From: Stutzerimonas stutzeri | Lineage (GTDB): Bacteria; Pseudomonadota; Gammaproteobacteria; Pseudomonadales; Pseudomonadaceae | DNA length: 64,000 nt | Direction of reading: 5' to 3' | Assembly: GCF_024448715.1 (NCBI RefSeq) | Contig: NZ_JAMOHZ010000002.1 | Coordinates: forward strand, 124,001-188,000 | Part shown: positions 45,668 through 64,000 of the stretch, one piece after another | How the letters are laid out: each line of letters begins with the position of its first letter | Numbering within the stretch: position 1 is the stretch's first letter | Translations under genes and position numbers: made by a program | Notes under the pieces: model-generated | Databases searched by the model: none | What the model saw: the letters and a program-made list of their open reading frames with translations, nothing else | What the model was told of the DNA's origin: nothing

Positions 45668-47812
45668 TTATGTCCCGCGCGGCTTGGCTCGCGCGGTAGG
45701 CTCGGCGACCAGCGGATCGTCCGGCCAATAATGTTTGGGGTAGCGACCCTTGAGGTTTTTCTTCACTTCGACGTAGGTATTGGCCCAGAAGCTGGCCAGA
45801 TCCTGAGTCACCTGCACTGGTCGGCGCGCCGGCGACAACAGGTGCAGCTTGACCGCTTGGCGCCCGCCGGCGATGCGTGGCGTGTCGCCCAGCCCGAACA
45901 GCTCTTGTAGCCGCACCGCCAGTACCGGTGGCGACTCGCTGTAATCGAGCCGCACCCGCGAACCGGAAGGCACGGCGATGGCGACCGGCGCCAGCTCGTC
46001 GAGACGCTGCGACAACGGCCAAGGCAACAGGCTGGCGAGCATGCTTCGCAGGTCCAACTGAGCGAAGTGAGCCAGCCGCGAAACCTTGCCCAGGTACGGC
46101 AGCAGCCAATCCTCCAGCCGCGCCAGCAGCGCGGCGTCGCTGACGTCGGGCCACTCGCTGGCGCCGCTGGTATCCAGATCGATCTGCCGGAGCAAGGCAA
46201 TGCGCGCCTGCCACTGGCGCAGTTCCGGCGTCCACGGCAGCAGCTCCAGCCCCTTACGGCGGACCAGCCCGAGCAGGGCGCGGCCTCGCGCTTCGTCATC
46301 CAGCCCAGGCAAGGGCTCACGGCTGAGCACCAGCTCGCCAACCCGCCGCTGCCGCTCGGCACGCAGCACACCCTCGCGCTCGTCCCATTCCAGCTCGTCG
46401 CGTTGGCTGACCTGCTCGGCCAGCACGTCTTCGAACAATTTCGGATCCAGCGCCGCGGCGCGGTAGATGCGTTCCTCGCGCTGGCCCTGGCGACTGCCCA
46501 GCTCAGCAATCACCAGCCAGGGCTCCTTCATCAGCGCATCCGGTTCGCCGAATACCGCTGCCCGACCGTTGGCCAGGCGATATTCGCCACCGCCCTCACG
46601 GCGCTGCCGAGCGATCCGGTCGGGATAGGCGAACGCAAGCAGCGCGCCGTGCCAGCGATGATCGGTGGGATCGGCCGACGCCGCCCCCGATGCGCCACGT
46701 AGCAGGCCACGAAACTGCCGGGCGAGCTGGCGCACCCGCTGCGCACCGGCATGCCGTCCCGCGCTGCCGTCGAGCAGCCCGAGACGCGTAGAGATGTCCG
46801 TACCGCCGCCGCGCTGGATGTCACGCTCGACCAGCAATGCGGAGAGGTCGGCCGCCAGCTGTGCGAGACCCAGCGCCTGTCCGCGCAACAGCAAATGGGC
46901 GATGCGCGGATGCGCTGGCAGCTCGGCCATGGCCTGGCCGTGGGCAGTCAATTGCCAACTGCCGCGAGCGTTACGGCTGAGCGCGCCCAGGCGCTGAAGC
47001 AGGTCCTGCGCCTGCGCATAAGCGGCAGCCGGCGGCGCATCCAGCCAGGCAAGTTCATCCGGCTCGACGCCCCAACGCGCCAGCTGCAGCGCCACCCCGG
47101 CCAGATCGGCCTGCAGAATCTCCGCTTCGCCATAGACGGCCAGCTGCGCATGCTGATCCTCCGACCACAGCCGGTAACACGCACCCGGTTCCAGGCGTCC
47201 GGCACGGCCGGCACGCTGTGTCGCCGAAGCGCGGGAGATGCGTCGAGTTTCCAGGCGGGTCATACCGCTGCCGGGATCAAAACGCGGCACGCGCGCCAAT
47301 CCGGCATCGACCACCACCCGCACGCCTTCTATGGTCAGGCTGGTTTCGGCGATGTTGGTCGCCAGCACAACCTTGCGCTTGCCGACAGGCGCCGGTTCGA
47401 TAGCCGCACGCTGGGTGGCCAGCTCCAGTTCGCCATGCAAGGGGCACAGCATTACCTCGCTTCGATCCGCCAGTTGCTCGGCCAGGGCGTCGTTCACGCG
47501 GCGGATTTCGGCCTGGCCGGGCAGGAAGACCAGCACGCTGCCGGTTTCTTCATCCAGCGCCTGCAGGACCGTTTGCACCACTCTCGGCTCGATGCGCTCG
47601 CCTGGCTGGAACGGCCGCCCCCAACGTTGGACGACGGGATACATGCGCCCTTCGCTGCGCACCACAGGCGCATCATCGAGCAGGCTGGATAGCCGTGCGC
47701 CTTCCAGCGTGGCGGACATCAGCAGAAGCTTGAGCGGCTCATCGCGCAGTAACACGCGGGCGTTGAGCGTCAGCGCCAGGGCCAGATCGGCATCCAGACT
47801 GCGCTCAAGCAC
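45668..47812 (-). pseudogene. hrpB: hrpB, 5'-truncated by a mobile element
   Basis: This is the C-terminal 714 residues of the ATP-dependent helicase HrpB. It begins at ERSLDADLALAL, where intact HrpB has DEYH...LDADLALAL (motif II). The N-terminal 130 or so residues, including Walker A GAGKT and motif II DExH, are missing. The remainder (SAT motif, QRAGRAGR motif VI, helicase C-terminal domains) is intact. Sequence right of the gcgctc at 47801-47806 is that of the inserted element. A GTG at 47812 could start translation, but without Walker A and DExH the protein would not be an active helicase. The composition matches the core genome, so this is the original host copy. Confidence 0.9.
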
Positions 47813-47830
47813 TTTGCCACTTGCCAGATG
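47801..47830. other. Left junction of the mobile element in hrpB (candidate attL)
   Basis: Homology to hrpB is lost within the motif II codons. On the minus strand the host reads CTT GAG CGC AGT CTG GAT, where a normal HrpB has a CAC/CAT histidine codon before GAG. The element side runs rightwards from about 47807. Direct repeats flanking such elements are expected; the second copy would be beyond this window. Confidence 0.6.
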
Positions 47831-50194
47831 TTGTCAAACTCTTCCAGTATCCTTCTATTCCGGGCATTTCATGGAAATAATCTCAAGGATAAATCTTTGA
47901 CAGTCATCAAACATATGCAGTCGTTGGTGAACTATCGCTTTAGCGTCATACCTCCAGATGTCGTGGACCTCATGCAGCGTTGCGCCGCGATCAACGCTGC
48001 GGAAAAAGCTAATCACCTCGTGAAGGTCTTCGAAGCCTACTGCCAAGTCACCGGCACCGTGATCACTTATCTGTCTCTCTCCTCCCCATCATTTCTTAAT
48101 GTCATGAAAGGCTTTCTCGGATCGTTAGCCGACCAATCTCTGCTCGTCCTAAACGGTACGAGCAGACAGCGCTACGCCAGGGGATTCGTCATGCTGTTGG
48201 ATGAAATGCGTAAGGAGATCCCACTTTTGCCCTCCTTATCTCGAATGGAGGTTTATCCCCGTTACAACCAGCACGTTTGGGAGCAGGAAAAGCAGCACCT
48301 CGACGCAAAGTCAGTTCGCTACTGGAATGGCTGGCCTGTTCAAGGCCGCAAAGAAGCAATCAGCTTCATTCCGATCAACCTAATCTGGAACTCCCACGGC
48401 GAGGAGTTTGCCGAAGAGATTTATAAGAACTATCGCCAGAATGCGCAAAAACATCTTGCACCTGCGCACTCTGACTTCAATTTGTTTTTGCTCTTTCTCT
48501 CACAAAATGCTGAGCGCTGGCCCAGTACCAGTTTCCAGCACCCTATGCAGATCAAGAATCTCTTCATCGATTACTTACTCTTCAACTTCAAGCAAGCACT
48601 GGAAGTAGGTACTGACATCGCAAATCGGACGCGTTCCTATGCGAAGTTCATCCATACTATAGATGAGGCGTTCATCCAATCGGGAATTTGGACCCGGCCA
48701 TTCGCTGGTGAGTTACCGCGCCCGACTTCCGCCTCTACGCCTGGCTCCCATACCAATCTCAGAACGACAGCTGATGGCACCATTGTTAAAGACAAGCTCA
48801 TAACTTCCGTACCGCTGCAGCTAACCGACTCCGAAGCAATAGAAATAATATTTAAAAGAATCCTAGAAGATAACCAGATAGTAGTGAAATGGGCTGAAAA
48901 ACGACTCTTTAGCATCCGCAAGAAACAAATCAATCGAGATCAACTTTCGCTCACAGGGACACCAATCACAAAAATAAGCCGACGACTTGCAAGCATCAAT
49001 GAAGTCGGAGAGAACAACTTATGTGCAACATTCAAAAAATTTGGGCTAGCTTATCTTAGAGAGCATGCAAACAAGATTCTTTGGCAAACAACGAAAGATG
49101 ATGCAGCCAAATTATTTGCCCTCCCCAAACCCAGCGACTTCTTCGCCCTGCAGTTGCTACTCACTTACCATCATCCCTGCTTGACAGAAAGCTTCTTCGA
49201 TAACCTCGAGCTCTACGACAAACGGGGAAATCTTTCTGGATTCCTGAAGACAGACAGCGGCTATCAACTTATTGGATACAAAGATCGCAAAGGAGGCAAA
49301 TTGAGTGAGCAAAAAATCGACCTTACTCCTCGGCAGGCCGTATGGGTTCGCCGAGTAATTTCACTAACTGAACCCCTTCGGGAAGAACTTCGCAATGCAG
49401 ACGATAATGCATGGCGGTATTTATTTATTCACTGCCAGCGAGCCATCTGTTATCCAAAAAAGCCGAAGATATTCAAGATCAAGCCATGCATGATAGATCG
49501 TCACCAGCAGATAATTGACGAATTTTCAACTATTTCTGGCCGAGACGAAAACACCATCCGAGAGTTTATTTCACGTGTTTCGGTGACATCGCTGCGAGCA
49601 TCCAGTGGAGTTGAAGTTTACCTAAAGACTAACAGCGTAGAAACTATGGCTAAGGCTATCGGGCATACTGGATATAACTCTTCTTTGCTGAGTAGTTACC
49701 TACCGGAACCTATCCTTGCATTTTTCCAGACCCGATGGATTCGAATTTTCCAGCGCGGCATTATTTGCGAAGCCATGAAGGACAGCCCTCGCTTACTAGA
49801 AGTCGCAAGATTCCAAAACATGGAGGAACTTCATGAGTTCCTAAAACACCATGCTCTACGAGAAATTCCAGATCATATCCGGAACCCCGAGCACATGAAA
49901 ATGGCGGATTCAAAACAGCGGGACATCCAGCATATTGACCAGGCTGATCGTGTACTTATCTCGATCGACAGCGGAGTGCTTACTGCCCTCCTTTCATTAA
50001 AAGAAGCCGTTTGCAGCGCTAGCACCCCGTCCAAACTGTGCTCTAAAGCTATTTACTGGTCGAATTTCACCGACTTGGTAGTACGAGAGATTGAAGATGG
50101 CTACAACAGTGACCTTCAAGATCACCTACACATCGCGCGAAAGCACGTCAGCGCTTCACACATGGAGAATCTGATCTATGCATCTACCCCCTGA
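47828..50194 (+). CDS. ginA: GinA-like recombinase, large integrase-family protein with altered active site
   Basis: A protein of up to 788 residues, first of the four-gene operon. The C-terminal part has integrase-like order: TSLR (T587, R590) in place of HxxR, GH at H613 and a candidate tyrosine at Y624 in SSYLP. The expected His is Thr, so activity may differ from a standard integrase. The N-terminal 500 residues are helical and lack a motif I know. The start is uncertain: ATG 47828 lies 22 bp inside the left junction with no ribosome site. TTG 47897, with AAGGA 7 bases upstream, would give 765 residues and a more credible start. It overlaps ginB by 17 bp. The name follows the GInt scheme as I remember it. 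Confidence 0.72.
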   Translation: MLSNSSSILLFRAFHGNNLKDKSLTVIKHMQSLVNYRFSVIPPDVVDLMQRCAAINAAEKANHLVKVFEAYCQVTGTVITYLSLSSPSFLNVMKGFLGSLADQSLLVLNGTSRQRYARGFVMLLDEMRKEIPLLPSLSRMEVYPRYNQHVWEQEKQHLDAKSVRYWNGWPVQGRKEAISFIPINLIWNSHGEEFAEEIYKNYRQNAQKHLAPAHSDFNLFLLFLSQNAERWPSTSFQHPMQIKNLFIDYLLFNFKQALEVGTDIANRTRSYAKFIHTIDEAFIQSGIWTRPFAGELPRPTSASTPGSHTNLRTTADGTIVKDKLITSVPLQLTDSEAIEIIFKRILEDNQIVVKWAEKRLFSIRKKQINRDQLSLTGTPITKISRRLASINEVGENNLCATFKKFGLAYLREHANKILWQTTKDDAAKLFALPKPSDFFALQLLLTYHHPCLTESFFDNLELYDKRGNLSGFLKTDSGYQLIGYKDRKGGKLSEQKIDLTPRQAVWVRRVISLTEPLREELRNADDNAWRYLFIHCQRAICYPKKPKIFKIKPCMIDRHQQIIDEFSTISGRDENTIREFISRVSVTSLRASSGVEVYLKTNSVETMAKAIGHTGYNSSLLSSYLPEPILAFFQTRWIRIFQRGIICEAMKDSPRLLEVARFQNMEELHEFLKHHALREIPDHIRNPEHMKMADSKQRDIQHIDQADRVLISIDSGVLTALLSLKEAVCSASTPSKLCSKAIYWSNFTDLVVREIEDGYNSDLQDHLHIARKHVSASHMENLIYASTP

Positions 50195-52283
50195 ACTCGA
50201 TTTTCTTTCGCCTTTTCTAATCAAGGCTAAAGAAGAATATCGATCGGCCTGTTGGCTTCTCAGCGACTTCGATGATCCAGTGTGGAGGATTAGCTTTGAA
50301 TTCAAAACATATAAAGAGCTTGACTGGAGGGTAGTATTGGATGACGGAAGCACTCTTACGGAATCCAGACACAAACAACTGCTCGACAGCTTCAAGTATT
50401 ACTTGACGTCTTGCACACGCATTTCTTCCAGTTTTCTTGCAGAAGCGAAAGGTCAGCGACAGCAGCACAAGCGCTTTCGCGCTGCATGTCATATCATTGA
50501 CTTACTGCTCATAAATAGCAAACGCTACAAGCTATCCTCTCATGGACTTGGCGGGCTTACGAGTGGTAACTTAATTGAAATTCTAGAGACGATAGCATCA
50601 ACCCCACATACTACAGAGTCAATATACAATTGGACTAATCGAGCACGCGAATACTGCCTTGATTTAGTTAAACGCACCGATTCCAACGAGATCTCAATCG
50701 TACTGAAGAGCCTTCCAGAAATTGGATTGATCACTAATGAGCAATTGGACGATGACATACTAGGAATATCTTATGACCTAATTCCTCAGGTACGGGCGGC
50801 TCTATACTTAAGAAATTTCTATCACAACCAAGTTCCCTATGGCAAACAGCCGAATACCTTTTTGCTCGCCCAGGATATTTACCATGATACCCTACGAGGC
50901 AAGAGCCTCGCCAAGCCCGTTCACCCAATCCTCTGCTTCAACAGTGACACCAGTACTTTTAAAAAGGAATACCGAAGTGCGCCCGTAAAAAGTGGGCAGC
51001 ATGAGAGAATGATAGACAATACCTACTATTTCTATCGTTCAACTTTATACAGCCTTGGGTTGTTACATGAAATCCCGCTTCCAAGCCCTCCCCTAGAGGC
51101 CCTAATTGAGGCTGAACGCTATATGCCTGATTTGTCGACCCTGGGTAGGTTTCGCACTGTTCCGTCCGACATCGTATTCAAGGCTGTACGTCAAGCGATA
51201 GAGTTCCACCTCGATCACGGACAAGAAATCACTAAAGCTTTCTGTCGAGTTGCACTCGAGTGCCGCAAGCGCAACATATCTCCAAGCTCTCTTACGCATG
51301 AAGAGGTACAATATCTAGTTGGTCAAAAACTGGCATCTCTGGGAGTAAATAGACTATGTCTTTCGACTCGTGTGCGTGGTTCAGCCAAGTCCAAAACTCG
51401 CTCCAACGTGAAGGGTAAAAAAAACGAGTATTTCGAAAACCTAAGACGCAATTCTGGTCTATATGAACTCATAATGGTTTACATCGGGTGCATACAGTTG
51501 ACTATTGGCGTGCTTATGGCCCGACGCGCTAGCGAGTTGTATGAATTAAAAGCAGCCGATTGCCTTGACGAAACTGAGACGTGGCTCATGTTTAAAAACG
51601 CAAAGAGCACTCGCCACCTCTTCGGTCATCGTCGCAGGCAAGCGCGCCCCATCGAACCCATAGCCGTAGACATGGTAAAGACTCTCATTAGGATGCAGAA
51701 GGTTCTGCAACGGATAGGTTACATCCGTAAGCTTAAAACCCTTTTCGCCGTTCCTACTGTAACAGGCGCACCGAATCTCACGGAATCGTCCGTTACCGTG
51801 TACAACCGCAACCTCGACATGTTCTGTGACTATTTCGAAACACCTCTAAACGCAGCTGGTGAGCGATACTATTTCCGCCAGCACCAAATGCGTCGTTTTT
51901 TTGCAATGTTGTTCTTTTACTGCGGCAGTTTCGCCAAACTCGACACGCTGCAATGGATGCTGGGACATGCGGATCCAAAGCATGTCTACCATTACATTAC
52001 CGAATCAACCGACGGATCCGTGTTAGCCAGTGCCAAGGCACACTATGTAGCCGAACAACTGCATATGGGCAATGTTGAGAATTACCTCGCCCTCGCCGAA
52101 TTACTCAAGAAACGGCACGGGACAGAAGACTTCAATCTGATAGATACCCATGATCTAGAAGACCAGATTCAAGACTTGCTAGTTGAGGGCTGGGTGGAAA
52201 TCGAGCCGGAATTCTTCACGGATCACCAGGGCCACAAGTTCAAGGTAGTGGCCCGCCTGATTTTAACTGAGGAAACAGCATGA
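50178..52283 (+). CDS. ginB: GinB-like tyrosine recombinase
   Basis: A 701-residue protein with a complete tyrosine recombinase C-terminal domain: R449/R450 in ARRASELYEL, HxxR (H569, R572), H597 in MLGHADPK and nucleophile Y604 or Y606. The first 400 residues are long helical arms likely used for DNA binding. It overlaps ginA by 17 bp and ginC by 4 bp, as expected for an operon. The gene is AT-richer than the core genome around it. Confidence 0.85.
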   Translation: MHLPPELDFLSPFLIKAKEEYRSACWLLSDFDDPVWRISFEFKTYKELDWRVVLDDGSTLTESRHKQLLDSFKYYLTSCTRISSSFLAEAKGQRQQHKRFRAACHIIDLLLINSKRYKLSSHGLGGLTSGNLIEILETIASTPHTTESIYNWTNRAREYCLDLVKRTDSNEISIVLKSLPEIGLITNEQLDDDILGISYDLIPQVRAALYLRNFYHNQVPYGKQPNTFLLAQDIYHDTLRGKSLAKPVHPILCFNSDTSTFKKEYRSAPVKSGQHERMIDNTYYFYRSTLYSLGLLHEIPLPSPPLEALIEAERYMPDLSTLGRFRTVPSDIVFKAVRQAIEFHLDHGQEITKAFCRVALECRKRNISPSSLTHEEVQYLVGQKLASLGVNRLCLSTRVRGSAKSKTRSNVKGKKNEYFENLRRNSGLYELIMVYIGCIQLTIGVLMARRASELYELKAADCLDETETWLMFKNAKSTRHLFGHRRRQARPIEPIAVDMVKTLIRMQKVLQRIGYIRKLKTLFAVPTVTGAPNLTESSVTVYNRNLDMFCDYFETPLNAAGERYYFRQHQMRRFFAMLFFYCGSFAKLDTLQWMLGHADPKHVYHYITESTDGSVLASAKAHYVAEQLHMGNVENYLALAELLKKRHGTEDFNLIDTHDLEDQIQDLLVEGWVEIEPEFFTDHQGHKFKVVARLILTEETA

Positions 52284-52903
52284 GCAGGGCGTCGCGAGCA
52301 AGCCTAGTGGCTGCCGGCGTCAAGGCGCTTCATGTTCTGCTTGTGCAGATCATTCAACGGCCAGTGCAATTCAGTAAGGATGCCGATCTCCACCTCGCCC
52401 TAAAAAGCCAAGGAAGTCTCGCAAAACTCGAGCGATCTATAGCGAGCGAGAAAGACGAGCCACTAATAACTTACCCTATGAGCTTGAACAGCCTGAAGAC
52501 ACATGCTAATGAAAACCTAGTTGGTGGCTTCAAAGCACTAAATGATCTACGCCTCAAAGCTCTCGAGGCGCTTGAATTTGCGGAGAAACGGCAGCAACAC
52601 GCCAATAAACGAAGCAAGTCAGGGTTAACAAGAAAGGTCGAGCAGCTGGAACAGGAACTGGAGATGCAGCGGCAGACGAATGTGATATTGCTTCGCGCAC
52701 TATCCGAGTCAATGACTCAGCTCACCAACATACGCGACGCAGCGGACGACAAGATCCGAGCAAAGCGGACCCACGATGCCCTCCACACTTTACGGGCCAT
52801 ATTGAGCATGGGCATGCCACCGTTCAATCAAGTAGAAAATTATTCCGAAGCTCACGCTCCGATAGCGGACGTTGCCAATATCTCGGACTACCGCAAAGGC
52901 TAG
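52280..52903 (+). CDS. ginC: GinC-like small helical protein
   Basis: A 207-residue protein with a predicted coiled coil around residues 100-145 (KVEQLEQELEMQRQTNVILL and neighbours). No catalytic motif. In GInts one small helix-loop-helix protein is essential for integration and excision; position and size fit that role. It overlaps ginB by 4 bp and is 3 bp before ginD. Confidence 0.78.
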   Translation: MSRASRASLVAAGVKALHVLLVQIIQRPVQFSKDADLHLALKSQGSLAKLERSIASEKDEPLITYPMSLNSLKTHANENLVGGFKALNDLRLKALEALEFAEKRQQHANKRSKSGLTRKVEQLEQELEMQRQTNVILLRALSESMTQLTNIRDAADDKIRAKRTHDALHTLRAILSMGMPPFNQVENYSEAHAPIADVANISDYRKG

Positions 52904-52906
52904 CGC

Positions 52907-54340
52907 ATGAATAGTCGATTAACCCGTAAGCTTTACAGCCTCTTGGGCGAATTCAAGACATTCAGCCACTTTTCGGTCGACCGCTTGAGTACCCGTGATG
53001 CCACTAACATGCCGTTTATGATCTGGCCAAACGGTTCGCCCTGTTTAATTGGCAACCTGTATATGCAATCCCTGTTGAGTCGCAAGGGACGTGGAAAGCA
53101 AGGGCTATCGCGAAAGGGACAGAAAGGCGGATCAATGGGAGAGTACGCCTCAAAATTGAGTCAACTGCTACGAAAGTGCTATCGAGATAGTCTCGACCCC
53201 ATCACCCTGCAAGATGGAAAGTTTACTGATTACATTGATGAGATTCGAAAGGAGACCTCGAGTTTCAATCCGGCGGTAACAAAGAAATCGGAGACCTCAG
53301 TAGTTGCCACGGGAAAAGTTTGGCTAGATTTTCTAGGCTTCGTTGGCCGGTTATATGGCATTCCTAACTTTGTTTCTCCTGAAGGGTCAATACGGGCCAG
53401 GGAGGAAAAGTATGTCGCCGCGTCCCGAAATGGGAGAAATATCTATCGGACTTACTTGACGCATCACTCGTTCGGAGAGTCGCACAGAGAACACCGCAGA
53501 AACCCGATCACGAAAGAGCAGATTCAGCAACTGAAAGCCGCCATCCGGAAGGATAAGAGCCCTGCGTTTGTGAAGGTAAGACGTGCCTGCATGATTGAAC
53601 TTTTCAGCGATACAGGTGGAAGGCGCACCGAAGTTGCAAACCTTAAGGTGGATGATGTACTGAGAGCATTGGAAATGGAACATCCCGTACTACGCCTGGA
53701 CACGCTCAAACAGGCCGAGGGAGCCGAGCGCTACGTTCCCGTCTTTTCTACTGCGCTAAAAAAACTCAAACAGTACATAGAAGTGGAGCGACGCAAAATC
53801 ATGCGCACTGTGTACAAAGGCGTAAAGGATCATGGGTATTTCTTCGTCTCTGCGACAACGGGTCGCCCGCTCACAAGCGGCGCAATATCAAACGAGATCA
53901 ATCATCTGCGCAAAGTAGCCGGCATCGAGTCCCAAGTCTGCGCGCACATGTTCCGTCATGCCTTCATCACCAATCTCTTCATTCGCTTCATCAAACGCCA
54001 CCAACTCACCAATGAAGACGACTTCCGGCGTGCGCTACTTGATAGCCAGACATTCCTGGCTGAGGTAATCAGTTGGACAGGTCATCTCACATCACAATCG
54101 GCCGAGTACTACATCAACTTGGCCTTCCGCGATTTGGCTGGATACACGGAAACAGTAAGTTCAGTTCACCTGGTCATGGCGATGGACAAGTACTTCTCAG
54201 AGGAGAACGAATTGCTCGCCCTCCTTGAAGAAGGTATGCCGGTCACCGAGTACATTCAGCGACTCAAAGTGCTGCAGAAGATGGCGAATAAGGACTTTGA
54301 GATTGCTCGCCAGCGGGAGTCTTCACTCACTCGCACATGA
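52907..54340 (+). CDS. ginD: GinD-like tyrosine recombinase
   Basis: A 477-residue tyrosine recombinase with the full catalytic set: R239/R240 (GGRRTEVANL), HxxR (H347, R350 in HMFRHAFI), GH H393 (WTGHLTS) and nucleophile Y401 or Y402 (AEYYINLAF). The C-terminal tail about 415-477 is helical and is repeated in degraded form at 55247-55477. It is the last gene of the operon; the following 200 bp are AT-rich. Confidence 0.85.
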   Translation: MNSRLTRKLYSLLGEFKTFSHFSVDRLSTRDATNMPFMIWPNGSPCLIGNLYMQSLLSRKGRGKQGLSRKGQKGGSMGEYASKLSQLLRKCYRDSLDPITLQDGKFTDYIDEIRKETSSFNPAVTKKSETSVVATGKVWLDFLGFVGRLYGIPNFVSPEGSIRAREEKYVAASRNGRNIYRTYLTHHSFGESHREHRRNPITKEQIQQLKAAIRKDKSPAFVKVRRACMIELFSDTGGRRTEVANLKVDDVLRALEMEHPVLRLDTLKQAEGAERYVPVFSTALKKLKQYIEVERRKIMRTVYKGVKDHGYFFVSATTGRPLTSGAISNEINHLRKVAGIESQVCAHMFRHAFITNLFIRFIKRHQLTNEDDFRRALLDSQTFLAEVISWTGHLTSQSAEYYINLAFRDLAGYTETVSSVHLVMAMDKYFSEENELLALLEEGMPVTEYIQRLKVLQKMANKDFEIARQRESSLTRT

Positions 54341-54547
54341 GGGGCGGGCCGTGGGATCTACGCCAGTTCTGTCATGCACGGTTGCGCTTTTCGTAAGGTC
54401 TAATCGGAGCGTTGAAGGATGGTATAAATTTCTAGAATCGCACGCAGCCTAGCATGAGCCAGTTGTTCTATTTCTAATCTTTTGCTTGCAGTACCCAACA
54501 AAGTAACTTACTTTTTTAATTCACCAGCATTAACATTAAGGCAATAC

Positions 54548-55246
54548 CTATGGCTTTCTCGGCTTAGCTCTTGCAGTAGCCTCGGCCACAAGTGGATCCT
54601 CAGGCCAGTAATGCTTGGGGTACCTACCTCGTAAATCTTTCTTCACTTCCGCGTAGGTATTGCGCCAGAAGCTCGCCAGGTCCTGGGTGACCTGCACAGC
54701 AGGTGCAGCTTGACGCCTGGCGACCGTTGGCGATGCGCGGGGTATCGGCCAGGCCGAACAGCTCCTGCAGGCGCACGGCGAGTACCGGCATCTCGTCGCT
54801 GTAGTCCAGGCGGATACGGGAACCGGACGGCACTTCCAGCGTACGCGGCGCCAGTTCGGCCAGCGGCCCCTCGAACAGCGCCGGGTCGAGGTCGGCGGCG
54901 AGGTAGATGCGCTCCTCGCGCTGGCCCTGGCGACTGCCGAGGTCGGCGATCACCAGCCAGGGCTGTTTCATCAACGCATCCGGCTCGCCAAAGGTCGCCG
55001 CGCTGCCGTTGGCCAGGCGGTAATCGGCACCGCCCGCGCGGCGTTGCTGGGCGATGCGGTCCGGGTAGGCGAAGGCCAGCAGGCAGCCGAGCCAGCGCGG
55101 GTAATCCGGATCGGCCACCGGCTCGCTGGCCGGGCCGCGCAGCTAGGAGCGGAACTGCCGCGCCAGCTGGCGGGCGCGCTGCACGCCGCCACGAGCGCCG
55201 CGCGCGGCCTTGTCGTCACCGGCCAACAGGGCCAGGGGGTTGTCCT
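54548..55246 (-). pseudogene. hrpB remnant, C-terminal, with stop, deletion and frameshift
   Basis: The minus-strand reading from 55246 runs QLARQFRS, then a TAG stop (about 55144), then LRGPASEPVADPDYPRW, then AFAYPDRIAQQRR to LAADLDPALFEG. After that it jumps straight to LAELAPRTLEVPSGSR, losing about 170 residues. Near 54700-54710 a frameshift breaks LHLL; the normal frame resumes at VTQDLASFW and ends AKPRKP-stop at 54548. It is a different hrpB allele from the copies at 45668 and 55535, with host-like GC. It is joined at its 5' edge to a ginD remnant. Confidence 0.85.
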
Positions 55247-55477
55247 GACTCTGTAGAGCGCTACATTCACCTAGCCTTCGAGAAGGTATCGAACTATCAC
55301 ACTACGGTTTCCTCGGTTTACATGATCAAGGCGATTGAAGTCTTTGACCAAAGCCAAGAGAAACTTCTGAACGACTTGAAGGCAGGAATGCCTGTTGCCG
55401 AGTACGCAACAAAGCTTGCAAAGCTCAAGAAGTTTCGTAATGAAGACTTTGAAATTGCCAAGGCACGCGCCACGTAA
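55247..55477 (+). pseudogene. ginD remnant (C-terminal about 75 codons)
   Basis: DSVERYIHLAFEKVSNYHTTVSSVYM ... is split here to stay short: VERYIHLAFEKV and VSSVYMIKAIEVF align with AEYYINLAFRDL and VSSVHLVMAMDKY of GinD at 52907-54340. The end NEDFEIAKARAT matches NKDFEIARQRES. Everything upstream, including the HxxR and GH motifs, is missing. It belongs to a second, more diverged gin operon. It lies 57 bp from the C-terminal end of the intact hrpB, an arrangement close to that after ginD. Confidence 0.85.
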
Positions 55478-55534
55478 ACTTGGTCGCTTCTTATCTCGAT
55501 CTCTAGATTTTTCTTGGCTTCGCTCGGGCGGCAG

Positions 55535-58057
55535 TCATTGCTTTCTAGGCTTACTCCTAGCGGTTGGTTCTGCTTCCATAGGGTTATCAGGCCACCAGTG
55601 TTTGGGGTATCGACCCTTTAGATCTTTCTTTACTTCAATGTAAGTGTTGGCCCAAAAGCTGGCGAGATCTTGAGTAACCTGTACGGGTCTGCGGGCTGGA
55701 GACAGTAGATGCAGTAGCACCCCCTGACGGCCTCCTGCTACACGTGGAGTGTCAGCCAGGCCAAACAGCTCCTGTAGCCTCACAGCAAGCACGGGTGGGT
55801 GTTCTGAGTAATCAATCGCAATGCGCGAGCCAGAAGGCACCTGCAGCGCTTTGGGGGCAAGTTCATCGAGGCGTGCAGGTAACGGCCAAGGCAGTAAACC
55901 AAAAAGGATGCTTCGGAGATCCAAGTCGGCGAAATGACTGAGTCGGCTGACTTTATCCAGATACGGTCCCAGCCACTCTTCAAGTGAGCTCAGGAGTGCG
56001 GTATCTGACAGATCAGGCCACTCACTTTCACCCTTTTGCTCGAGATCCAGACCACGAAGAAGAGACACTCGTGCCTGCCACTGACGAAGATCCGGTGTCC
56101 ACGGTAGCAGCTCCATGCCCTTGCGACGTACGAGGCCGACCAAGGCCTTAAAACGAGCCTCTTCATCAAGCCCAGGAATGGCCGCTCGACTCAGTACCAG
56201 CTCACCCACACGCTGCTGACGCTCGGCTTTCAATACACCTTCGCGTTCATCCCACTCGAGTTCATCACGCTGGCTTACCTGCTCGGCAAGCAGAGTGTCG
56301 AATAGCTGGGGATCAAGTGCTGCGGCAATGTAGATGCGCTCCTCTCTCTGACCTTGTCTGCTCCCAAGATCTGCAATGACTAGCCAAGGTTCTTTCATCA
56401 GTGCGTCAGGCTCGCCAAACTGAGCGGCACGACCATTTGCCAATCGGTACTCAGCTCCACCATCGCGTCGCTGACGAGCAACTCGGTCGGGATAAGCGAA
56501 GGCCAAGAGCCCCCCTTGCCACCGTGGATGATCAGGGTCTGCCACAGGCTCAGATACCGGGCCGCGTAGATATCCCCTGAACTGTCTCGCTAGCTGACGG
56601 GTTCGTTGAACAGCCCCTCGACTAGCGCGTGAGGACGCTTCATTACCCAATACACTAATACGATCATGAAGGTCGGCGCCGGTACCGCGGAGGATATCCT
56701 TTTCTCCAAGCAGCGCCGCGATGTCACAGGCGAGGTTACCAAGTCCGAATGCCTGGCCACGGAGCAACAGATGCGCGATTCGAGGATGTGCAGGTAACTC
56801 AGCCATAGCTTGGCCATGGGCAGTAATAACACCACGCTCATCTAATGCTCCTAGCCGGATGAGCAGGTCACGAGCTTGCGCATAAGCTGCTACAGGAGGC
56901 GAATCTAACCAAGCCAAATCGTCAGGCTGCACGCCCCATCGTGCTAGCTGCAGCGCGAGTCCAGATAGGTCTGCCTGCAAAATTTCGGCAGCGTCGTATG
57001 CAGCAAGCTGGTCATGTTGCGATTCCGACCAGAGTCGATAGCAAACACCTGGTTCGAGGCGTCCTGCGCGGCCAGCACGTTGCGTAGCTGCCGCTCGAGA
57101 AACACGTTGCGTATCCAGGCGAGTCATACCACTGACAGGGTCAAAGCGCGGCACGCGGGCCAGTCCAGCGTCCACTACGACGCGAACGCCGTCGATGGTT
57201 AAGCTTGTTTCGGCTATGTTGGTGGCAAGCACCACTTTGCGTTTGCCTTGTGGCGCGGGTTCGATAGCAGCTCGCTGGGACGATAGGTCAAGTTCGCCAT
57301 GGAGCGGACAAAGCATAATGTTCTCTTGGCCCTTCAGTTGATCTTTCAACTGCTCGTTAACCCGGCGTATTTCAGCCTGACCGGGAAGGAATACAAGGAT
57401 GCTCCCGCTTTGTTCAGATAGGGCCTGCAGGCAGATCTGAATCACGCGTGGCTCGACGAACTCACCGAGTTGATAAGGTCTCCCCCAATACGTGGTGACC
57501 GGGAACATACGACCGTCGCTCGTCACTATTGGAGCGTCGTTCAGGAGCTTAGAAAGGCGATCCCCCTCAAGCGTTGCAGACATGAGAAGGATCTTAAGAG
57601 GTTGGCTTTCGTCCCTCAGAAGCTCACGGCCGTTAAGGCAAAGTGCTAAGGCTAAATCTGCGTCGAGCGTACGAAGATGGTATTCATCGAAGATGACAAC
57701 CCCAACACCGTCGAGGGCAGGATCCTCTTGTAAACGACGGGACAGGATGCCCTCGGTGACGACTTCAACTCGGGTTTTCGGACCGACTTTGCTTTCCAAG
57801 CGAATCCGGTACCCGATGGTTTCACCTACTCTCTCACCCAATTCGCTAGCTAGACGCTCAGCCGCAGCTCGAGCAGCAAGACGCCTCGGCTCGAGCATCA
57901 AGATGGTTTGGGTTCCAAGCCATGCCTCATTCAATAGAGCGAGGGGAACTCGGGTTGTCTTACCCGCTCCTGGAGGAGCTTCAAGGACAGCTTCATTTCG
58001 CTCTGCCAATGCTGAGCGAAGGGCAGGCAGAGCAACGTCGATAGGGAGAAAGCTCAT
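55535..58057 (-). CDS. hrpB: ATP-dependent helicase HrpB, intact, probably carried by the element
   Basis: An 840-residue DExH helicase. Walker A PPGAGKTTR and motif II DEYH (about residues 124-127 from this start), SATLEG, QRAGRAGRLEPG and the HrpB C-terminal domain are all present. ATG 58057 gives the family start SFLPIDVALPALR; the GTG at 58075 adds six residues. Codon and base composition are lower in GC than the host fragment at 45668, and many synonymous codons differ. It would replace the function of the interrupted host gene. HrpB's cell role is not clear, perhaps RNA processing. Confidence 0.92.
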   Translation of the reverse strand: MSFLPIDVALPALRSALAERNEAVLEAPPGAGKTTRVPLALLNEAWLGTQTILMLEPRRLAARAAAERLASELGERVGETIGYRIRLESKVGPKTRVEVVTEGILSRRLQEDPALDGVGVVIFDEYHLRTLDADLALALCLNGRELLRDESQPLKILLMSATLEGDRLSKLLNDAPIVTSDGRMFPVTTYWGRPYQLGEFVEPRVIQICLQALSEQSGSILVFLPGQAEIRRVNEQLKDQLKGQENIMLCPLHGELDLSSQRAAIEPAPQGKRKVVLATNIAETSLTIDGVRVVVDAGLARVPRFDPVSGMTRLDTQRVSRAAATQRAGRAGRLEPGVCYRLWSESQHDQLAAYDAAEILQADLSGLALQLARWGVQPDDLAWLDSPPVAAYAQARDLLIRLGALDERGVITAHGQAMAELPAHPRIAHLLLRGQAFGLGNLACDIAALLGEKDILRGTGADLHDRISVLGNEASSRASRGAVQRTRQLARQFRGYLRGPVSEPVADPDHPRWQGGLLAFAYPDRVARQRRDGGAEYRLANGRAAQFGEPDALMKEPWLVIADLGSRQGQREERIYIAAALDPQLFDTLLAEQVSQRDELEWDEREGVLKAERQQRVGELVLSRAAIPGLDEEARFKALVGLVRRKGMELLPWTPDLRQWQARVSLLRGLDLEQKGESEWPDLSDTALLSSLEEWLGPYLDKVSRLSHFADLDLRSILFGLLPWPLPARLDELAPKALQVPSGSRIAIDYSEHPPVLAVRLQELFGLADTPRVAGGRQGVLLHLLSPARRPVQVTQDLASFWANTYIEVKKDLKGRYPKHWWPDNPMEAEPTARSKPRKQ

Positions 58058-58215
58058 ACGAATTTTACAGTACACAAGGAGGACTGACAGAGATGATCAC
58101 GCATATCAGAGCGAATGGCTCCTTTCTTGTGAAAAGTGCTGGAAGGTCTGATCGCCACACACATCATCACCATCGAGGCCGAGTGATCGAGTACGCAAGT
58201 CGCATCCACGTACGC

Positions 58216-58800
58216 TCACACAAGGCTCAATGTCGACCGCATCCATGCCGGCATCTTGCAGGCCCGGAGCTTCATCAGCTCTTCGCCGCTCAGCGCTCTA
58301 ACAATCTTGGAAACCACATTAGCGGACAGCCCTTCTTTCCCGATGTAGTAGAGAGCAGTAAGCGCCACACCTACCGTCGTGCCGGCGTGCTGCAAGCGAT
58401 CCTTGGATACGTGGCGGAGGCGAACCACCGCATTGCCAACCTTGATCTCGCGAGTAGATCCGCTGGTGTAAAAGGTCGGCAACACCTGCATCTGTGTGCT
58501 GAGGCCCAACCTCCGAACAGCCTCCGCGCCGTGTATCTGGATCGTCTCGCCGCTCGCCTTCGTGATGACCTCCATGACAGCCAGCGGACTCGGGCGCACC
58601 ACCCTGCCGGTGTACTTGCTCATTTTGGGGCGCATGTAGACACCGCGAGCTACTCGCTCCAGCGTGCCTGATTGCACCAGCCTAGAAAGCGCTTTATCAA
58701 TCGACGCACGGGAACCGATCTGCGCGAACACCGCGCCGGCAAAGGGCCTCCCCTTTGGCATGTGCTTGACTCGATTTAAAATAGCTTGTGCGACGGACAT
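58216..58800 (-). CDS. AbiEi-like/DUF6088 antitoxin-type protein
   Basis: A 194-residue protein with an N-terminal winged helix (LNRVKHMPKGRPFAG, ASIDKALSRLVQSGTLERVARGVYMRP) and a C-terminal domain with IQIHGAEAVRRLGLS. It matches DUF6088/AbiEi-type antitoxins, which repress and neutralise an AbiEii nucleotidyltransferase toxin. The toxin gene normally follows at once; here the next 140 bp on the same strand encode no such protein and then hrpB begins. The partner is therefore missing from this locus. Confidence 0.78.
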   Translation of the reverse strand: MSVAQAILNRVKHMPKGRPFAGAVFAQIGSRASIDKALSRLVQSGTLERVARGVYMRPKMSKYTGRVVRPSPLAVMEVITKASGETIQIHGAEAVRRLGLSTQMQVLPTFYTSGSTREIKVGNAVVRLRHVSKDRLQHAGTTVGVALTALYYIGKEGLSANVVSKIVRALSGEELMKLRACKMPAWMRSTLSLV

Positions 58801-63986: not shown

Positions 63987-64000
63987 TGCCCGCATCATCT

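Follow-up and report, generated by a model that had tools for sequence, protein, structure and literature searches.

Many mobile islands limit the harm of insertion by using gene ends or intergenic sites, and the islands found in tRNA, tmRNA and dusA genes supply a gene end. Islands in tRNA and tmRNA genes are described as restoring the target gene (Islander, PMC4383910), and the dusA islands as inserting site-specifically into a gene (PMC4482086). The systems closest to the locus treated here are the GInts, which are genomic islands with three integrases (PMC5385486), the SEs, which are strand-biased circularizing integrative elements with the gene order intA-tfp-intB-srap (PMC10214605), and Tn554-like elements. 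The transposon Tn552-II (tnpABC) carries a target-gene-like gene, tgl, and rescue of the disrupted target was suggested by its authors (PMC12486829). In Pseudomonas aeruginosa, hrpB has been named in one sentence as a gene in which genomic islands integrate (PMC8373256). The locus analyzed here is a 64,000 nucleotide stretch of Stutzerimonas stutzeri DNA (the window, G000:C2:124001–188000, from a genome of 4.6 Mb; G numbers designate the genomes compared and L numbers the loci). It is considered likely that the window displays an island family that breaks the helicase gene hrpB and carries a recoded replacement hrpB, and that it holds one such element within another.

The pieces of the window that bear on this are, from left to right:

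45668–47806, minus strand: 3′ part of the host hrpB, residues 135–844, cut at the DEFH/ERS codons, with its end at CTGCGCTC
47807–47827, no strand: outer (type A) element, left end, AAGCACTTTGCCA..., shared with G028 and, in its inner portion, with G081
47828–54340, plus strand: four-gene recombinase operon, orf1 to orf4, all in one orientation
about 54554–55226, minus strand: decayed hrpB 3′ part, residues about 475–598 and 736–845, with one internal stop
55241–55477, plus strand: tail of a second orf4, assigned to the inner (type C) element
55535–58057, minus strand: intact cargo hrpB, assigned to the inner element, 846 amino acids, open frame from the GTG at 58075, in the orientation of the host gene
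57668–57688, minus strand: recoded target site within the cargo hrpB, where DEYHLRT replaces DEFHERS at residues 130–136; the codon for residue 134 is at 57674–57676

This is the five-piece order of the original prediction, and every piece is present with its position and strand. The intact hrpB is identified as the NCBIfam HrpB equivalog (E = 0) and the HrpB domains are present; the host 3′ part displays 77% identity to it. The original prediction had pointed to the DNA right of base 64000 as the place to look for a 5′ piece of hrpB, and a whole-genome search with the intact protein located one, residues 5–134, at G000:C2:252176–252565 on the minus strand. This fragment complements the left fragment of residues 135–844, thus the island extends from C2:171807 to about C2:252178, a length of 80.4 kb. 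A comparison with the empty site gives the same picture. In the uncut relatives G033 and G070 the hrpB gene has the same neighbors, i.e. a substrate-binding gene, a small lipoprotein-like gene and fieF, and each genome has one uncut copy.

The cut is located between the H and E codons of the hrpB DEFHERS box, the helicase motif II region. Junctions were read at the same point in all 37 genomes in which the gene is cut at this box, at least one in each, with the left junction read in 36 and the right junction in 36. There is slight variation of the host bases. Left junctions show the host sequence CTGCG(C/T)T, or variants such as CTACGCT and CTTCTTT, followed by the element; right junctions show the element followed by (A/G)TG and the host codons for E and F. 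The end types relevant to the window are type A (AAGCACTTTGCCA ... TGGCAAAAC), type B and type C.

The original prediction that hrpB is both target and cargo of this family is borne out by the genome census, in which cut genes and extra copies were counted by whole-genome searches with the cargo hrpB. In Stutzerimonas, hrpB is cut in two at this point in 12 of 56 genomes and an intact extra hrpB is found in all 12. Among 21 selected genomes 16 are cut, all 16 with an intact extra copy, and among 39 further Pseudomonas genomes an orf4 relative is present in 19, nine of which are cut, again all nine with the extra copy. Pooled over Stutzerimonas and Pseudomonas, the intact extra hrpB is present in 37 of 37 genomes cut at the DEFH box. 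Pseudomonas controls that are orf4-negative have a single uncut hrpB (20 of 20). Of 298 Pseudomonas genomes sampled evenly, 28 had an orf4 relative, and hrpB is cut in at least 16 of the 298 (20 orf4-negative genomes were checked). A search of the named genome collection with orf4 gave 34 loci, of which 26 are strong, and in 22 of the strong ones the operon has the hrpB 3′ part immediately to its left; the original prediction had proposed to look for such genomes. The remaining four strong loci are L057 (element located elsewhere), L059 (contig end), and L060 and L061 (other sites).

Several genomes were not counted among the 37: G060, with two intact hrpB genes of equal score on two contigs, taken as an assembly duplicate; G169, with an intact cargo hrpB and the host hrpB only as a broken piece on another contig; G372, whose hrpB is frameshifted and uncut; and G032 and G075, which have host 5′ fragments without a matching 3′ fragment. 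G088 was included, though a contig end cuts its host fragment. In G415:C35 (L251), which belongs to another family, hrpB is cut at the same point beside what by eye is an element-like end, and the contig stops there; no intact hrpB is among the matches listed for G415, and this genome was not counted.

The intact hrpB is a member of the target's gene family, and it could have been supposed to stem from local duplication of the host gene, or to be cargo picked up at random with no relation to the target. This is highly improbable. The intact copy has 77% identity to the host gene and 96%–100% identity to copies elsewhere, in other genomes, which refutes a local duplication of the host hrpB, and the two fall into separate groups of the tree. 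In addition, an extra hrpB accompanies the cut in all 37 cut genomes, whereas it is present in none of the ten genomes that have an orf4 relative (31%–47% identity) and an uncut hrpB (G083, G084, G100, G144, G145, G194, G226, G242, G319 and G358).

Cargo hrpB and host pieces share a strand in all 36 genomes that allow the comparison (G094, with its pieces on separate contigs, does not). The end of the cargo gene is less than 300 bp from the host 5′ fragment in 11 of the 36 (G085, G086, G087, G089, G090, G092, G093, G095, G157, G255 and G332), thus the host promoter might reach the cargo gene in these. The ratio of nonsynonymous to synonymous substitution rates (dN/dS) is 0.06–0.13 in six of eight cargo pairs and undefined in two; judged from these values, the cargo hrpB appears to be under purifying selection. 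It would be expected to encode a working protein, with rescue of the broken host function as its benefit.

The target site in the cargo hrpB is recoded. This was absent from the original prediction and is a new observation of the present analysis. Thirty-nine cargo copies were read, including those of G169 and of G081, where the element is outside of hrpB. The box is DEYHLRN in 13, DEYHLRS in 10, DEYHLRT in 6, DEFHLRN in 5, DEFHSRN in 3, and DEFHIRN and DEFHLRS in one each. Thus HER is changed to HLR, HSR or HIR in 39 of 39 copies and none displays HER. HER is kept in 47 of 49 chromosomal genes uncut at the box and in 26 of 26 outgroup genes from the wider order; these box states refer to the fetched loci, which are a part of all uncut genes. 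The alignment has 158 columns with conservation of at least 95% both in hosts and in outgroups. The only one of these that falls to 0% in the 33 distinct cargo proteins is residue 134, where the E of the crossover point is located. Over the 15-bp core, the 21 distinct cargo sites have 4–9 mismatches to the host consensus; the 47 HER host sites have 0–3 in 45 cases and 5 in two. As both the DNA and the protein are changed at the insertion point, the cargo copy should be a poor target.

In the proposed mechanism, the element would insert site-specifically between the H and E codons of DEFHERS and break hrpB, and the complete, diverged cargo hrpB, in the same orientation as the broken gene, would replace the host gene. 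The change of HER to HLR, HSR or HIR would make the cargo hrpB a poor substrate for the element's own recombinases and so may confer immunity, and the element could then persist and meet further copies of itself without hrpB being lost again. With moderate confidence this is viewed as a self-immune target replacement in which the site was recoded at least twice, and in which the elements can persist and stack, with an element-borne allele taking over from that of the host hrpB. Where recombination later removes the operon, as seems to have happened in G075, the host would in that case keep a recoded, insertion-resistant allele.

It is possible, though doubtful, that replacement takes place without selected immunity, the motif having been inherited from one or two HLRN-like donor lineages and having no role in avoidance. 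A number of observations weigh on this side or otherwise against the main reading. Ten type-B copies are nearly one sequence, and 31 of the 33 distinct cargo proteins are in one N-terminal group, which also holds the chromosomal hrpB of G008 and G009; these two genes are at the normal locus with no element beside them and read HLRN. The cargo copies are thus not independent and the independent recodings may number only two. The cargo hrpB of elements at a second site, the 3′ end of hrpB (see below), has also lost HER in three of three cases. It is recoded at the DEFH box and not at the site of its own element, thus shared descent or exchange fits as well as selection. A related element in the P. 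aeruginosa megaplasmid pPA1609-475 (L274, NZ_CP090650.1 143000–191000) is located in a tellurite-resistance cluster, not in hrpB, and its hrpB keeps HERS. Recoding is therefore not universal; the megaplasmid element is possibly a vehicle, and its hrpB represents an unrecoded state of the cargo. The site distances overlap slightly, with one cargo site at 4 and five at 5 mismatches and two host sites at 5. The nested insertion in the window itself struck a carried hrpB, and since the codons of that target are gone its recoded state is unreadable and immunity may be partial. The rescue reading itself is weakened by G032, in which the composite of the window is represented by its right half and no intact hrpB was found, so that hrpB may be dispensable in that genome. 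Against inheritance without a role in avoidance, the separate type-B group has the same change of E to L, and L, S and I all occur at the residue. The change falls on the crossover codon itself, and no other conserved column is wholly lost. The mosaic cargo hrpB of G079, which is cargo-like to about residue 350 and host-like after it, has kept the recoded site in its N part.

As the original prediction had proposed, trees of the hrpB copies were constructed, and the intact hrpB of the window is grouped apart from the host gene. In the whole-protein tree cargo hrpB is found in four places, and split trees trace part of this to mosaicism. In the N-part tree, with the site removed, cargo is in two places, and a single cargo clade is rejected, though at a borderline level (approximately unbiased test, p 0.038). 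As mosaicism explains part of the four-place scatter, only two origins are claimed. The C-part tree groups the sequences differently from the N part, thus the cargo hrpB genes are mosaic. The single hrpB of G075 (L098, L111) is also chimeric, with type-B cargo sequence to about residue 280 and host-like sequence beyond. There is no operon in the 12 kb fetched around this gene, and the host 5′ fragment is still at a type-B right end. The G075 chimera seems to be the expected product of recombination between a cargo and a host hrpB.

Type-B elements from orf1 to hrpB show at least 99.9% identity in six comparisons, and the host hrpB parts in the same comparisons differ by 3%–22%. Near-identical elements in divergent hosts show recent movement between species. 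The core of the type-A composite, 10.3 kb, has 99.9% identity in G000, G028 and G081; the left flank in G081 is not hrpB, and a whole hrpB is on another contig.

The island also probably holds one element inside another, as had been predicted. Both outer ends of the G000 island are type A. A type-C right end is found at about C2:248798, which is 3.4 kb inside the outer right end, and is abutted by eight codons, LVIFDEFH, which are the 5′ side of an hrpB target. The same inner junction is present in G028 and G032. On the opposite side are the decayed hrpB, which has 86%–88% DNA and 95%–98% protein identity to type-B cargo hrpB, and the orf4 tail at 55241–55477, which has 42%–43% identity to the window's own orf4 and 94%–97% DNA identity to type-C orf4. 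This tail is a remainder of the second operon, in agreement with the original prediction that most of it has been deleted. It is thus supported, on comparison of these sequences, that the hrpB of a type-A element had received a type-C element. In G000 the type-C element would have entered the carried hrpB, later deletion and rearrangement with an IS4-type transposase gene would have removed most of the inner hrpB and the inner operon, and the type-C hrpB would be left as the working copy. The deletion removed the inner left junction and fused the type-A-carried hrpB, at about codon 475, to the inner orf4, at about codon 395.

The LVIFDEFH codons were also considered as part of a transposase. 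Of 92 plasmid records with a match to the adjoining sequence, the ten listed all stop at residue 171 of 179, where the codons begin, and six of these ten are annotated as IS4 family transposase. As the transposase matches end where LVIFDEFH starts, these codons are not transposase sequence. A Pfam search of the adjoining reading frame gave no match. With hrpB motif II codons directly at an element end, LVIFDEFH is read as an hrpB remnant.

The remnant and tail could otherwise have come from recombination between tandem elements, or from accretion, with no nesting. This is thought unlikely, although only the left of the two remnants is type-B-like (the right one is LVIFDEFH), the inner left junction is gone, and chimeric hrpB genes do exist (G075, G079). 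A simple tandem would be expected to have a type-C outer end, whereas type A is found at both outer ends, and the right end of type C is inside the island, beside hrpB codons; simple tandem insertion was therefore set aside as the simplest model. The occurrence of the same inner junction in G028 and G032 also favors nesting. As the two remnants of the inner hrpB are unlike in lineage, that hrpB was probably a mosaic, or the history is more complex. Debris of this kind is also found in G014 and G169, where an hrpB end adjoins an orf4 or the tail of one.

The four genes of the operon are:

orf1, 47828–50194, plus strand: 788 amino acids; best PDB fold matches are the tyrosine recombinases XerH and Cre, weak (E 0.007–0.01)
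orf2, 50178–52283, plus strand: 701 amino acids, a large tyrosine recombinase, with R..HxxR..H..Y seen by eye in the 90% consensus
orf3, 52280–52903, plus strand: 207 amino acids, a small protein with one weak PHROG match (unknown function) and no other family
orf4, 52907–54340, plus strand: 477 amino acids, a tyrosine recombinase

There is no Pfam or PHROG match for orf1. By eye one R, one H and the Y of its catalytic set are invariant, and the first R and first H are not seen. The order is thus degenerate-large, full-large, small and full-short, and it is the same in all compared loci that hold a whole operon. The original prediction had labeled the operon ginABCD. The four-gene recombinase set with a small protein agrees with this label; the order does not, as the small protein occupies the third place and the fourth is taken by a full tyrosine recombinase. 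The name ginABCD is therefore only partly supported.

The remaining cargo in the window follows the intact hrpB:

58216–58800, minus strand: AbiEi-antitoxin-like/DUF6088 gene, directly after the cargo hrpB
further cargo up to 64000: TcmP-partner-like gene and response regulator

The part of the island beyond the window, up to C2:252178, holds genes for copper and cation efflux. The island cargo at L010–L012 includes a multicopper oxidase, a CusS-type kinase, two RND pumps, a cation efflux protein, a Tn3 transposase and a pyridine-nucleotide reductase with a heavy-metal-associated domain.

The second family of elements is found at the hrpB 3′ end in G018, G342 and G306, where a different operon adjoins about codon 826 and is followed by the family's own hrpB. 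The order of this operon is SE-like by eye, and in G018 its proteins have 496, 636, 683 and 142 amino acids; by profile comparison with the window operon only the first protein matches (to orf4). Relatives of its first gene are beside the hrpB 3′ end, by coordinates, in G005, G011, G023 and G025. No further extra hrpB is present in these four genomes; the one extra copy of G025 adjoins a DEFH-box operon. At the 3′-end site hrpB is thus carried in three of seven genomes, compared with 37 of 37 at the DEFH box. The host protein is nearly complete after insertion at the 3′ end, so that a replacement matters less there, and this supports rescue as the reading of the DEFH box elements. Both kinds of element are present in one hrpB, at the DEFH box and at about codon 826, in G342 (L238–L239) and G306 (L253), each with two intact extra hrpB genes.

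At L060, which is not in hrpB, the gene left of the operon is the presumed target; it is present once in the genome, with no sign of target replacement. The same gene was found in two broken pieces in G084. Two operon ends are within 3.5 kb in G178:C85 (L150, L173), an orf4 followed by the orf3 and orf4 of a second, distant element. The same four-gene order is also present in a Providencia IncT plasmid (NZ_CP145930.1, L276) beside umuDC and a class A beta-lactamase gene. As at least 5000 plasmid records contain umuC-like genes, Providencia IncT plasmids were not taken as a case of replacement.

The order of the window operon fits neither that of the GInts nor that of the SEs. The likeness to GInts includes a four-gene operon at one end, full and degenerate tyrosine recombinases, a small protein, site-specific insertion and varied cargo (PMC5385486). 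Three integrase-like proteins and one small protein are present in a predicted operon, with orf1 counted on its weak fold match. However the GInt order is ginA-ginB-ginC-ginD with the small gene last, while here the small gene is third and a full short integrase is last. The GInt targets given in the text are an ABC transporter gene, ssb and a ribonucleotide reductase gene (PMC5385486), whereas the target here is hrpB, a word with no occurrence in the main text of that paper. GInts are further characterized by imperfect direct repeats of 10–11 nt at their ends and by excision as a circle, for which all four genes are required (PMC5385486). SEs resemble it in their set of proteins, which comprises an ordinary RHRY recombinase, a large one, a degenerate recombinase and a small protein (PMC10214605). 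The order differs, however, as that of the window would be like tfp-intB-srap-intA and not intA-tfp-intB-srap; hrpB does not occur in the main text of the SE paper either (PMC10214605). The passage on P. aeruginosa gives hrpB as a site only, without mention in that passage of a carried hrpB (PMC8373256), and the word is absent from two of the four sources cited there for the sentence. Searches of the open-licence PubMed Central literature, which covered main texts, gave no paper that describes a carried hrpB or a recoded target.

If immunity is real, the arrangement would be a natural counterpart of recoded-rescue designs. In that case it would also be a simple means of making an element difficult to lose, and would allow a mobile allele to take the place of a core chromosomal gene across species. 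A carried homologue of the element's own target gene is the feature shared with Tn552-II, and is found here in all 37 cut genomes. However tgl retains the att sequence, while the site is recoded here in 39 of 39 copies; one plasmid element, located outside of hrpB, has retained it. Tn552-II is also a single transposon with a YolD-like gene (PMC12486829), whereas the present family spans two genera and carries a helicase gene. Unlike the tRNA, tmRNA and dusA islands, these elements supply a whole separate gene and the host gene stays broken. The family strikes the catalytic core of a conserved helicase gene and would compensate with a whole substitute gene that lacks the site.

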